From Pezizomycotina sp. ARF18 (lineage: Eukaryota; Ascomycota): 64,000 bases of DNA. Below are positions 1-54,920 of the stretch, one piece after another. The stretch covers positions 1 to 64,000 of the forward strand of contig AZLU01000049.1 of assembly GCA_002224055.1 (NCBI GenBank), read 5' to 3'. The notes beneath the pieces were generated by a model, which was not told the origin of the DNA, made no database searches, and saw only the letters and a list, made by a program, of their open reading frames with translations. The position numbers and the translations under genes are program-made. Each line of letters begins with the position of its first letter. Within the stretch, counting starts at the first letter, position 1.

Positions 1-1844
1 TATTCCTCTATATATTAATTTTCGTTCGCCCATGTTACCAATTGTTCCCTTTACCTTATTTTTCTACATCCCGGTTTAGTACTTCAAAAAAGGCTCGTCC
101 TAGTCATGATCTAATTTCTATTTCTTTTTTCTCCTTTGGTCTTTTTTAATTCGGGGTTTTGCTTTTCCTTTGTTGCGTTTTGTTTCTCATCCTTGCTTTT
201 TGAAACGGTTCTATTTTTTGCGTCTTTTTTTATCTTAAGCTACTTCATCCCTTATAAAATTCTTTTGTTGAAGTTTGGTATATCTTCGTTTTCTTTTTCA
301 TTAAACACACATGACGTCTCGGGATTTTGGGGTGGTTTTCAGAACGTATAAAGTCTTTTTTCCTTCAATTGCTATTTTGTAACGATTTTACACAGCTTGG
401 TTTTACTGCATGTCGGGTTCCTCTGGCTTTTTTTCTACTTTTCTTCATTTTACTTAACCTTCTTTTCTATATAATTCATTTACTCTTTTTCTTCTCAATC
501 TTTGATACCTTCGCTTCGGTTTGGCTTTCTCTTCTGTCCTTTCTTTCCCTCATACCATTGGGCCTTTCATTTGTCAAATGTAAAAACAATATTTGTCGTT
601 ATATTCCCGAGTATATGTTTTTCTGGTTGCCGTTTTTCAATTTCAAATCGTGCACATGTCACGGTTCATAGTACTTGCTTGATTTCTTTTTTTTTTCTGT
701 CCCCATCTCTTATTTCACTACAATTTTTTTACGTCATTTATTAATTTACCAGCCACCAGAATATGGCATTTTCTTCGTATTTCTTTTGAAAAGAATAATC
801 TTCATGTACAGATGAGTTTTGTTTATTTCGTCTCATTTTGTATTTCTTCTGGAGATCGAAAAAACAAATTAACAAAAAATACTACTTTTTGTTGATGGAT
901 CAATCTTGTACAATTTTTTAGTATATATTTTCTCACCAGATGGGCTACTGTTAGAAGTAGTCCGAGTTTTATTTTCAAACAGAACTATATCCTGTTATAG
1001 TTTCTCTTTTCTGAACTTTTCTCTTCTCTGTCTAGAAAGAAAAGAAAAACATTCAAATAATAAAAAAATATATTCGAACAGAAACCTCCCACCGTTCTCT
1101 CATTTTTCTCGCGATCTCTTGCAATTGTATGGTACACATCTCTATTTCTCTTATTGTGATTCAAGTATGAATCAGTTCCCAAATTCATTAAACTTGCACC
1201 GGAGTTTTTTTTTTTCTCCTTTCTCTATCTTTCACTTTGGCGTATTTTAACGAAGCGATTAATAAAAATTTGACGATGGCGGGAAATTTCCTCAAAACGG
1301 ATGGAACAATTCCTTTTTCCATTATAGTTTATAAAATAGATTAGATTAACCAGCTAATGTAAATAAAAACTTCGAAGAGATATTTAGCAACAGGATAAAC
1401 CAGTAGTATTTATCTACCTTGATAATAAAGTCATGAGAAATTATTTTAGAGGTGATCTTTTTTCGGTGTGTGCGGTCTGCCATTTAATTGCACGCTGTGT
1501 ATTACATAATCGGCCTTTGGTAATTATTTTTTCGCTAAGGCTCCTTAGACTGCTCTCTCACGCACTTAACCTCCGGACCACGCTTTTACTTTCTCACAAA
1601 AAGCTAGATAGGCTAGCTACCCTCAACTACACAAAAACACACGACGCCTTCTTCCCCTCTCTCTTCCCTCCTGTCTACGCTTAAACTCCTTGCTTATTTA
1701 CCCTATCACCTTACTCCCGTTATATATATCTCTTTTTACACAGAAACGCAGCTGGTAAAAAGTAGCAGGAAACAGATATCCACGAAAAACAGCCTCCCAA
1801 ACAGCTTGTAAACCCAAGCCAAAACAGGACACAAGACAAAAAGC
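1..1844. other. Intergenic, T-rich, no gene seen
   Basis: Strongly T-rich on the + strand, with many poly-T and poly-A runs. Short open frames here encode only Phe/Ser/Leu-rich strings with no family resemblance, as expected from T-rich noncoding DNA. The last 100 bases are the leader of RPT5. Confidence 0.6.
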
Positions 1845-3591
<1,747 letters not shown>

Positions 3592-5849
3592 CCTCGTGCC
3601 CAACAATCTCATTTTTTCGTCTTTTTTCTTTATATAGTATATAATGGGGGACCTCCACAACACCGGGGAAAATTCAAATTTTGGAAAATCTCACGTGTGC
3701 CTGTGGTATGGTGATGATAATCGCGAAAAACATTATTATTAAAAAACCTTAATTTAATGACTTTTTTCTCCCTTCTCTCCGTATTTTTTCGCTAGACGAC
3801 TGTTGTATAAAGAAGACTAGGCACGACACTTTGTATTCATTCATTATCATTACTACGAAAAAAGGGGGAAAAAAAACCTAGATAGATAAATTTCAAAGTG
3901 CGTCATAAATATGGCGAAATAAATGCGAAAAGCTTTCATTATTTTTTTTTATATTTGAAGAATCTAGATTCCTTTTGGATTATATATAAGAACAAAAAGC
4001 ATACGAACTACAGTTACATTTACAGTGCCGCTTTTTCTTCTAGGTTAGGAAGCATAGAAGGGTTAAAAGAGAATAGCAGTTAAACTAGTCTCGGACCCTC
4101 CTTTGGAGGGTCGAGACTAAGTTAAACGTAATAAAATTTTTTTTTTTTTTTTAAAAAAAAGGAAGATCTGATTCGATCCCTCAAGTATAGCGTATCGCGT
4201 ATGATGTTTAATATATCCGCCGAGTATAGTAGAACGAGGTGGTGTCGTCGCTGACGTGTACCCGCGCCCCCTTCCTTCTGCAGCATTACTTAAACCGTTA
4301 AACTACTTCGTTATTTTTAATATATCTGACGATTGTATTGTTATATAGACGCAGTGTATCGCGGTGACGGCCTGACGGGGTCGGAACAAAATAGAATAAA
4401 TTTTCTGCCCTGAAGTTTGAAACAATCTCTTTGATATCGACACCTCCATCTCTCAAACTTTTACCTCTTTCCCCCATAACAAAGAACGTTTTTAGATGGG
4501 ATGACAGGGCCACCCCTTCGAAACTGATCGAAACAATGGCGCAATATAAGGAGAAATACCCCCAAAAAAGGGAATCTGAATTCTAGGAGAGTAAATAATA
4601 AACCTGCGAGAGTGATTAATTAATTAGAAAGAAATTTCGAGTCCTTTCGTTCTGTCGAGAACTGAGAGAGAAGGGGAGATTAATGATTATATCGTATAGG
4701 GGAATGTCATCATCATCTCGTATCGGTGAATAATAATAAGCATTTGTTTTCCGTCAAACCAAGAAACACTTTTTATAATAATAATAGCTTATATATCCAA
4801 CGCGGGTTGTTATTTCCCATAGAAAAGAGTCAGTAAGCCCCTAGGAACCTTTAGAAACGTCAAGCGGTTCAACAAGGGTTGATTTCTCTTCCTTCTTTTG
4901 TTCCATTACCGCGTTGTTTTTTTTGTGGCGTCGGACCTGGTGGCCACACCGATTCGTTTATCTCAAGGAGGTCAGTATGGCACACACTTCCTGACTCTAG
5001 GAGGTATTTTTCTTTTCTATTGCTCGGAGAATGTTTTGAAATATTCAAAAATCCAAGGACATTTTTCGCAAGTTTGATGCCACTTTGGGTATTTCGCTGC
5101 GTCTTAGGTCCTCTTGGGGAGTGGGATCCACCCCACTCAACCCAACAGAACCAACCTTGTCTTTTTTTCTTAAATGTTCCAACGAAAGCAACCCACGGTT
5201 ATGCCGCGTGATGGCTTGCTTTAGTTTGGCTGTATGATTTTTTTCTTGCTACTAAAGAGCTTTGGGGGTTTACCTCCGTTGAAAGGGTATTAGATTGTGC
5301 AGTTTGCAGCATGCGGCGCCCTTGAAAAAAAGGAAAAAATAGTTAATGATAATCGTAAATAAACGTATGATGTAGGTTACTTACATTACTTTCGTTGCAT
5401 ATAATAATCGTTTAAGACTGTCTTTCCCCGTTTTTTTTTTTTTTTTGCTTTTCAAACATGTTAAGAATGAGATAAATATAAGACTCAGGCACCGACACCG
5501 ACCCGCGCGGAAGGGGGGAAAGTGAAATAAAGAAAGGAAATAATAAGAGCTCTCTATTGGTATACAAACCAGACCTTTCGCACCTTTTTTTCCCCCAATC
5601 TTCTCTTCTCCAGCTGATTCTCCACACTTTTTCTTTTTCTTTTCAATTTTTGTTTGGAGCTGTCAGACGACAGACGAGTTTGTACTAGCGAAAGTAAGGA
5701 AACAATATTAATAGCTTGGTCAGGAACAATAATAGTAATTATAATCGATATCCACTTTGCTGCGAACGAAATCCATCAATTAGTTCTCTGTTCTCGGCAA
5801 AAAAGGAAAGATATAATAGGATAATACTTCCCCCACAAAACGAGAAATA
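3592..5849. other. Intergenic, AT-rich, with one long hairpin
   Basis: I see no convincing gene. The stretch holds poly-A/T runs and a strong inverted repeat at 4079-4125 (listed separately). An open frame of 110 codons at 4879-5211 has no recognisable content and is not called. Confidence 0.5.
4079..4125. repeat. Long imperfect hairpin followed by a T-run
   Basis: Two 7-bp arms stack: AGTCTCG (4087-4093) pairs with CGAGACT (4112-4118), and ACCCTCC (4095-4101) pairs with GGAGGGT (4105-4111). One G (4094) is bulged and the loop is TTT. Outer bases (TTAAACT against AGTTAA with one bulged A) extend the stem to about 20 bp. A 16-nt T-run starts about 18 bases after it. No Pol III A or B box was found upstream, so it may be a structured 3' end or a small foldback rather than an RNA gene. 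Confidence 0.6.
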
Positions 5850-26423: not shown

Positions 26424-27756
26424 TCAATGTTCATTACCGGCTCCGGCAACCTCAGGTTCGACCGTTGCTTTGCTTGGCGGCATTTGGGAGAACGTTGACC
26501 ACGTGATCGCGGGTTCCAAAGCCTTCGTTGCAGGGACGATGGACACCAGCAGCGGTTCGAGGTGCTCGTGCTCCTTCAGCAGCCCCTACTTCTTCAGCGA
26601 CTGGAAGAACTGCAGATCGTCGGGCTCCTGCTCCTTCTCGATGTTGTTGTTGCTCGTAGAACGCGCTATTCGATAATAATTGAAGAAGTGCTTCATGTAC
26701 CTGATGAACTCTCGTTATTGTTGAGGTGTACCTCGCCGAGCGGAAGAACGGTCCGGGATAGGAGGTTGCCGTCGTTGTTGTACGCGGCCCAGCCGTGGAC
26801 GCCGTACTGGCTATGCAGGGGTAAGCCCCATGGACCGCAACGCATCGGCTGCTACGTCCCGAAGTTTCATAAGCCGAAGCGGGAGCCGTCGATGCGCGAG
26901 AGGATGGGCCCATACAAATCTTGTACGGTTATGAAAGGATCAGGCACCGGAGGATTTGGCACGGGGAAGATAGGCTGGGGTGCTGATTAGCAAGAAAAAT
27001 AACAACAACTCTAGGAACATTTCTTACATGAGAGGTAATGCCTCCAAGGCGCCTAATTTTCAGTACTGACTTTACTCTCGAGCCCGTTGACCGTAACTTT
27101 TAATAATTTGACGGTAATCACCAGTTGTACGTTTTGCACACCACGGAGCCACATTAAGGCGTCCTATCCGAGTTTTCGGTCACTTTTACTCTATGCTGAC
27201 TTAACCACTACTCGAGGTTCGTCGTAACCGCGGCGCTCGATTAGAGTGTCTGGTTCCTTATGTGAGCCCATATACGGAGCTCCGAAGTTCGTGTATACTA
27301 TAAAAGGCATTAGAATAATTTATTTCGATCAGAGAAGATGCTACTTACTCGGTAAAGCGTAGATATCGAACTCATCTTTATAGGACGATAGAACTAGTCC
27401 CTACTTATCCTAATTGGCGCTCTCTTTATTAACCTACGTACCGACGCTTTCGTGGACCTTAGTGGGTATGATTACGTATACTTTATAAAGGAGTGAGTTA
27501 TACGCGAATCTAATAAAAATATATAAATTAGAATAAGGGCTTCTACTTCGCTAGCTAGAGAGGAGAATACGTACCTAAATCCTATGCCCTCGAGATTATT
27601 GGACGGGTAGACGAGGGAGGTATAAAGAAGATCGGCGTAGTCTTGATCGACATTCTAGAAGGAAAGGGAGGTCGTTTCCGGGTTGGGGTCTTTGAGGCTT
27701 GACACGATGTTCTTAAAGATGGAGCCGACTATTCGGTCGGAGAGCTTTACGGACAT
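26424..27756 (-). pseudogene. Unrecognised gene with eight in-frame TAG codons
   Basis: Four exons can be followed: 27575-27756, 27349-27509, about 27022-27297 and 26424 to about 26990. Donors GTACGT, GTAAGT and GTAAGA and acceptors TTAG, ATAG and CTAATCAG keep one frame across all three introns. The peptide begins MSVKLSDRIVGSIFKNIV, continues with VYVIIPTKVHES, VQNVQLVITVKLLKVTVNG and QYGVHGWAAYNNDGNLLS, and ends VEPEVAGAGNEH before TGA at 26424-26426. I do not recognise the family. The in-frame stops are all TAG, at 27655, 27434, 27410, 27401, 27191, 27164, 27053 and 26586 (lowest + coordinate of each codon); none is TAA or TGA. Exons 1-3 have no CAG codon but keep CAA; the last exon has both. 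Two frame changes in exon 4 match the one-base losses seen elsewhere. It is either a RIP-type mutated copy or a gene whose UAG is edited or read through. Confidence 0.6.
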
Positions 27757-28684
27757 GATCGCTGGCAGGCTTACAGTAATCGTATAATCCGAATTAGGTA
27801 GGCTGAGGTCGAGAGGGCGAAGAAATAGAGGAGGGAAAAAGGTTAAATCGTGTTGAGATGAGATACAGCAGATATTATATTGTGGAGGCCGAAAGAAACT
27901 GTTTTTTTATTTTTTCGAGGGGAATAATGTCGAGGTGATTTCTTAGGGTTATATAGGTACAGCTTGTTTTTCCCCAGTAATAAAATACCTCATCGCCATC
28001 ACTATCTAGGCCTAACCCTCGCCTCTCATTTTGGCCTCGTCCAGTTATCTAATTCTTCCTCCTTTTGTCTGCTATCTAGTCCACCGTTTCTCAAAATTCC
28101 GTCATCGGCGTCGCGGTGCTGCAGGTGGAAGTAGCTGCAGTGCGCCGGTCGCTACCTCCATCTCCTCCACCTCCACCGCCTGGGTTTCCAGGAAAAGTGC
28201 CTCTCGAGCCCATTCTCCTCTCCAAGTCCCTCTTCACTTCTTCCTTCCTCTGCCTGCTCCGCTTCGTTCCATCTCCCTTGAGTACATCCAGCTGCCTGGC
28301 AGTCACCGAGCACTGCGGTTCTTCTTTTTCTCAACAGCCCATTGGCTGCGACGCATGCCCGCCTGCTTAAAAGCTATATTCTCTTTTAACTAGCCTGTTT
28401 CTTCCTACTTCCATACTTCATTTCTCTACATCATTCCCCCCCCGTCCTTGTCACTTCTCTTTCTCAGTACACTCTCTTTGTAACTACTCATCACCATCGC
28501 TATCGACAACAACCTCGAGAGCTTTACGAAGATCATCCGTGCAGCTCGACTCGAATTTCCAGTGCTTTATTTCACTCGCTGCAGAGCTGGGGGTCTGAAC
28601 TTGTTTCCCGGTGTTCTTCCCCGCAGCCTCTCTTTGAGGGGTGGCAGTCTCGATATATATTCTTTCTTCTTTTCTTCTTTCTTT

Positions 28685-32314: not shown

Positions 32315-32408
32315 GATCAGGTGGCCGAGCGGTCTAAGGCGTTAGAATCAGGTCTATATGATATATCTAGTGGAGCAATCCGCGCGAGTTCGAATCTCGT
32401 CCTGATCA
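32315..32408 (+). tRNA. tRNA-Leu(CAG) with a 12-nt intron
   Basis: Acceptor stem GATCAGG (32315-32321) pairs with CCTGATC (32401-32407), with A as discriminator. The D arm is GCC...GGC. The anticodon stem TTAGA pairs with TCTAG, and the loop reads A-T-CAG-G then, after an intron TCTATATGATAT between positions 37 and 38, A. A long variable arm with a GGA/TCC stem marks it as class II. The T arm is GCGAG TTCGAAT CTCGT. The A box (TGGCCGAGCGG) and B box (GAGTTCGAATC) are present. Decodes CUG as leucine. Confidence 0.9.

Positions 32409-52645: not shown

Positions 52646-54920
<2,275 letters not shown>

Follow-up and report, generated by a model that had tools for sequence, protein, structure and literature searches.

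Repeat-induced point mutation (RIP), a known genome defence of fungi, acts on duplicated DNA in Neurospora and other ascomycetes, and both copies of a duplication are usually hit, which is the usual outcome and not a strictly defining one. The sequence context of RIP is CpA/TpG, and the process has been described as costing gene duplication (PMC12543289). How far mutation reaches is described as depending on how far the copies are homologous, and homology that is weak and interspersed can be enough (PMC4858203). Ascomycetes, including a Pezizomycete, have also been described to edit RNA by A-to-I conversion (PMC4817773, PMC5381528), and in the Fusarium work a hairpin loop is given as the preferred setting of the edited A (PMC4817773).

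The window analysed here is a stretch of 64,000 nucleotides from Pezizomycotina sp. ARF18 (assembly GCA_002224055.1, contig AZLU01000049.1, positions 1 to 64,000). It carries a gene interrupted by eight in-frame TAG codons (Table 1), which very probably arose when one copy of a duplicated fungal gene was mutated by RIP. Most likely it is a dead copy, ordinary for such a genome.

Gene model and paralogue

Three-frame translation places the gene on the minus strand, from an ATG at 27756-27754 to a terminal TGA at 26426-26424, in keeping with the coordinates first assigned to it. The spliced exons 27756-27575, 27509-27349 and 27297-27028 contain seven TAG, no TAA, no TGA, no CAG and three CAA codons. 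These counts cover exons 1-3, for which the first-pass annotation had given the same seven TAG, zero CAG and three CAA. The eighth TAG is found at 26588-26586 and is followed, as had also been reported, by 54 codons including the TGA, with a GC3 of 0.65.

The organism's genome, 46.4 Mb in 408 contigs, was searched with 26424-27756, and among the best candidates, which alone were scored, two places matched, the window itself and positions 55226-56201 of contig C249 on the opposite strand at 77% identity. A paralogue, which the original reading of the locus called for, is thus present at 77-78% DNA identity. The gene on C249 may be intact, and its alignment with the window copy contains indels. 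The last 352 bases of the gene (26424-26775) and exon 4 as a protein query each matched only themselves among the best candidates scored in this genome, so that the region of TAG 8 has no second match there by either query. A distant third relative on contig C25 is 44% identical over query residues 8-56. Next to the paralogue on C249 (3803-4403 of the stretch read) lie two ubiquitin repeats with a ribosomal L40-like tail. In the second repeat three Gln codons, taken to be numbers 31, 40 and 41, read TAG, and relative to the first repeat it shows six CA>TA changes against one, so that it forms another RIP-like case.

The statement that TAG is the only stop codon in the frame stands under one splicing of intron 1 (27574-27510) and falls under the other. 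The paralogue-type intron (27546-27510) brings the TAA at 27500 into frame, so whether the frame is TAG-only depends on which exons are chosen. The donor GTACGT at 27574, required for the TAG-only reading, is probably itself a C-to-T product, since the paralogue has GCACGT at the aligned position.

Table 1. Features of the gene copy and its surroundings, in coordinates of the 64,000-nt window
Feature	Position	Strand	Basis or remark
Gene copy as first outlined	26424..27756	-	Three-frame translation and codon counts
Exon 1, to the intron position common with the C249 paralogue	27547..27756	-	In the TAG-only model, only as far as 27575
Intron 1, paralogue-type, GT...TTATTAG	27510..27546	-	27574-27510 in the TAG-only model
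Exon 2	27349..27509	-	Translation, splicing of the model
Intron 2, GTAAGT...TTTATAG	27298..27348	-	Splice sites also in the C249 paralogue
Exon 3	27028..27297	-	Alignment, splicing of the model
Likely intron 3, GTAAGA...CTAATCAG	26983..27027	-	Found in the window copy and the C249 paralogue
TAA	27498..27500	-	Paralogue CAA; in frame with paralogue-type intron 1
Stretch homologous to the C249 paralogue	26780..27873	-	blastn, 860 of 1106 aligned columns identical (78%)
Downstream block common with C249	26238..26421		83%; CA>TA changes 1 in window, 2 in paralogue; no RIP bias
Further block common with C249	25779..25935		82%; CA>TA changes 1 in window, 5 in paralogue, some in a CA/TA repeat; no window RIP bias
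RIP-like patch	27001..27900		TA/AT 1.24-1.56, (CA+TG)/(AC+GT) 0.40-0.57, 500-base sliding windows
TAG 1	27655..27657	-	Paralogue CAA (Gln)
TAG 2	27434..27436	-	Paralogue TGG (Trp)
TAG 3	27410..27412	-	Paralogue TGG (Trp)
TAG 4	27401..27403	-	Paralogue CAG (Gln)
TAG 5	27191..27193	-	Paralogue TGG (Trp); by-eye alignment of the distant C25 relative gives Trp as well
TAG 6	27164..27166	-	Paralogue CAG (Gln)
TAG 7	27053..27055	-	Not a codon in the paralogue frame (AAA ATT AGA; window ATTAGG)
TAG 8	26586..26588	-	Outside the duplicated and RIP-like part

Pattern of substitution and origin of the TAG codons

Over 26775-27884 there are 35 sites, 21 sense and 14 antisense, at which TA in the window copy faces CA in the paralogue, and the reverse is seen at eight. 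In the narrower interval 26775-27860 the corresponding CA>TA changes number 34 in the window copy and six in the paralogue (Fisher p 2.4e-5 relative to other transitions). There, among C/T differences with the next base the same in both copies, 34 of the 68 sites with T in the window copy are in CA, the others being CC (14), CT (13) and CG (7), whereas T in the paralogue falls at CA in only 6 of 49 cases, with CG at 20, CT at 17 and CC at 6. Paralogue CG against window TA gives eight counts, or about four further sites, and the CpG totals of the two copies are 73 and 69. The paralogue also has TG (or CA) against CG in the window copy at 20 sites and the reverse at seven, an opposite CpG bias that is without explanation.

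The RIP-type changes of the window copy are distributed over exon 1 (10), intron 1 (4), exon 2 (10), intron 2 (1), exon 3 (6), intron 3 (0) and the aligned part of exon 4 (4), thinning out within the shared stretch toward exon 3 and exon 4. In the shared 5′ flank (27757-27884) the window copy has no CA>TA change and the paralogue has three. What the alignment shows is that, throughout the part common to both copies, CpA of the paralogue is matched by TpA in the window copy on either strand, and that TAG stands at CAG, CAA and TGG. The direction of change would be from paralogue-like CpA to window TpA, as judged from sequence context rather than from a close outgroup.

Comparison of TAGs and codons was made over the segments 27756-27547, 27492-27351 and 27285-27086, gapped columns being excluded. 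Each of the six TAGs that share the paralogue's frame stands opposite a Gln or Trp codon (TGG three times, CAG twice, CAA once). The paralogue has nine such codons in these segments, six of them replaced by TAG in the window copy and the remaining three reading CAG/CGA, TGG/TGG and CAG/CAA (paralogue/window). The attribution of the TAGs to RIP is thus supported for six of the eight. TAG 7, which is in frame only because the window copy is two bases shorter than the paralogue near 27085, and TAG 8 are not attributable in this way. The first-pass annotation had proposed a gene with a bias to CAG; of the six comparable sites two have CAG in the paralogue. That RIP would give TAG rather than TAA follows from the fact that CAG and TGG yield only TAG and that this genome seems to prefer CAG over CAA. 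The preference is seen in six pieces of a conserved HSP70 gene in the window, which in 561 codons contain 22 CAG, 3 CAA, 1 TGG, no TAG and no other stop codon (the count leaves aside a seventh piece at the 5′ side, which has one TAA).

Codon positions separate two kinds of difference between the copies. Differences that are not of RIP type are spread over codon positions 1, 2 and 3 as 16/14/78 (counts, 183 aligned sites each), whereas RIP-type changes in the window copy affect 35%, 40% and 34% of the sites open to them (8/23, 6/15 and 11/32). In the paralogue the RIP-type changes are 0/0/2. The third-position share differs between the window RIP-type changes and the other differences with p 0.0096, in a test that rests on 25 window RIP-type changes. 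This comparison shows two copies that had diverged under protein constraint and RIP-type changes that ignored it. Because the other differences concentrate at third positions, the gene family was formerly translated and constrained, and the lack of a codon-position filter on the RIP-type changes speaks against the TAGs being used as coding triplets today, either by editing or by suppression. The earlier proposal that the frame was or is translated can thus be kept for the past of the family, and its present use is disfavoured.

Base composition singles out the same region. In 27361-27600 the computed counts are CA+TG 7, AC+GT 24, TA 36 and AT 25, identical to those previously counted by hand. 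Sliding windows of 500 bases in steps of 50, scored by TA/AT and by a CpA index, (CA+TG)/(AC+GT), have medians of 0.87 and 1.07 over the whole 64,000-nt window. The nine lowest CpA indices all belong to sliding windows starting at 27001-27401, so that the gene region stands out in the scan that had been proposed for it. Under a laxer cut (TA/AT at least 1.1, CpA index at most 0.75) 21 of 636 sliding windows pass, five of them at the gene; the other 16 are milder, with a lowest CpA index of 0.63. The indices are ordinary at 27901-28400 and at 26424-26923.

Twenty control stretches of 10 kb elsewhere in the genome gave 1846 N-free sliding windows (74 with N were dropped), with a median TA/AT of 0.90 and a median CpA index of 1.05. 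Among them 43 are as extreme as 27201-27700, and 39 of these lie in one RIP-like repeat on contig C38. Counting itself, this repeat matches 27 places in the genome, and 18 of the remaining 26 are 80-83% alike; the copy read has a CpA index of 0.00-0.28 along roughly 4.7 kb (approximately 200-4900 of the stretch read). By this composition RIP acts, and acts strongly, on repeats of this genome. Matches to PF00145 (DNA methylase) are found on contigs C51, C13 and C16. Judged from motifs, the C51 match presumably belongs to the DNMT1/DIM-2 group, the C13 match resembles DNMT5 (a methylase with SNF2-type sequence) and the C16 match looks RID/Masc1-like. Fifty-four tRNA matches were found, with 63 of 1606 first-look candidates scored. 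Thirty-three of them lie on one strand of contig C50, up to position 230876, and C50 is perhaps a large mitochondrial genome. A tRNA gene, of unclear anticodon and perhaps with an intron, is located at 32315-32408 (+) of the window.

The main proposal of the first-pass annotation, a RIP-mutated duplicate, is therefore backed by the paralogue, the 35 to 8 excess of CpA-to-TpA changes and the absence of a codon-position bias. A formerly constrained duplicate would have undergone RIP, with C-to-T changes in CpA on both strands turning Gln and Trp codons into TAG. The mutation would have taken place before meiosis, the partner that triggered it may have been the gene on C249 or a further copy that has since been lost, and the window copy would make no full-length protein. 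Counting against RIP are the small number of RIP-type changes in the paralogue (8 against 35 in the window copy), their thinning in the window copy toward exons 3 and 4 and absence from its 5′ flank, the single such change in each of the two short downstream blocks, a direction of change judged from context, the opposite CpG bias of the paralogue, the unexplained TAG 8 and an assembly that looks error-prone.

Alternative explanations

Given the quality of the assembly, the strongest rival is a base-calling artefact in which long reads, assembled without polishing, showed T for methylated CpA cytosines, the true gene having CAG and TGG at the TAG sites. The HSP70 gene of the window (53036-54818, + strand) is conserved and has about six frame changes, at which its pieces, covering consecutive profile positions 39-149, 161-200, 200-329, 329-393, 391-485 and 482-597, mostly adjoin or overlap. 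The HSP70s on contigs C70, C208 and C303 are similarly fragmented among the same matches. These frame changes seem to be one-base assembly indels, of which there would be many, and the assembly seems poorly polished; its long-read origin is a guess. Against miscalling of methylated cytosines stands CpG, a common methylation context that is little affected here (the seven sites and about four CG/TA sites against 34 in CpA, with CpG totals of 73 and 69). The near-total loss of CpA in the C38 repeat is hard to obtain from miscalls, and TAG is absent from the 561 HSP70 codons. An artefact of this kind is highly improbable.

If UAG were edited to UGG in sexual tissue, the protein could in principle be restored, a process with the ascomycete precedents cited at the outset, and three of the six comparable TAGs align with TGG. 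The other three stand at Gln codons, which UGG does not restore, and the A of the TAG lies in a predicted hairpin loop at only one of the eight sites. The RIP-type changes show no selection by codon position, and five of them are in introns. Editing is thus a very unlikely explanation. It is just as doubtful that the gene survives RIP because sexual tissue either edits UAG to UGG or reads through it, giving a full-length but altered protein; if this were true, the protein would have Trp at former Gln sites.

Reading of TAG as an amino acid through a suppressor tRNA or a changed code would suit the exon model in which TAG is the sole stop, and one internal TAG is present in 3 of the 38 HSP70 matches of the genome (two on C303, one on C44), where introns or something else may be responsible. 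A single tRNA would not suit sites divided equally between Gln and Trp, and the six HSP70 pieces of the window have no TAG, so that suppression is extremely unlikely. Editing and suppression, both named as alternatives from the beginning, have gained no support, the six comparable sites being mixed three and three. A last rival, in which a duplicate free of selection simply decayed and RIP played no part, can point to the indels between the copies, which may be assembly errors and make frameshifts in either copy weak evidence of decay, and it is hardly credible in view of the one-sided, CpA-specific excess and the patch of extreme dinucleotide indices.

Comparison with RIP and editing in other ascomycetes

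The locus offers a worked case of how a gene containing CAG and TGG codons acquires TAG-only frames through RIP, and with it a warning that such frames resemble recoding or editing. The apparent assembly indels limit every reading-frame-based claim from this genome.

As in the PUK1-type edited genes described in Fusarium (PMC4817773), the frame contains TAGs, three of them at Trp positions. It is unlike those genes in its three Gln sites, in RIP-type changes that extend to introns and third positions and in a hairpin loop at one of eight TAGs, and it is known from DNA alone. The locus differs from RIP as known in Neurospora and other ascomycetes in that, of the two copies, a single one is clearly hit, and moderately so, and in that the process is known in this organism from its sequence alone. 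The resemblance lies in duplicated DNA with C-to-T change at CpA on both strands, in TAG arising at CAG and TGG codons and in repeats that are heavily hit.
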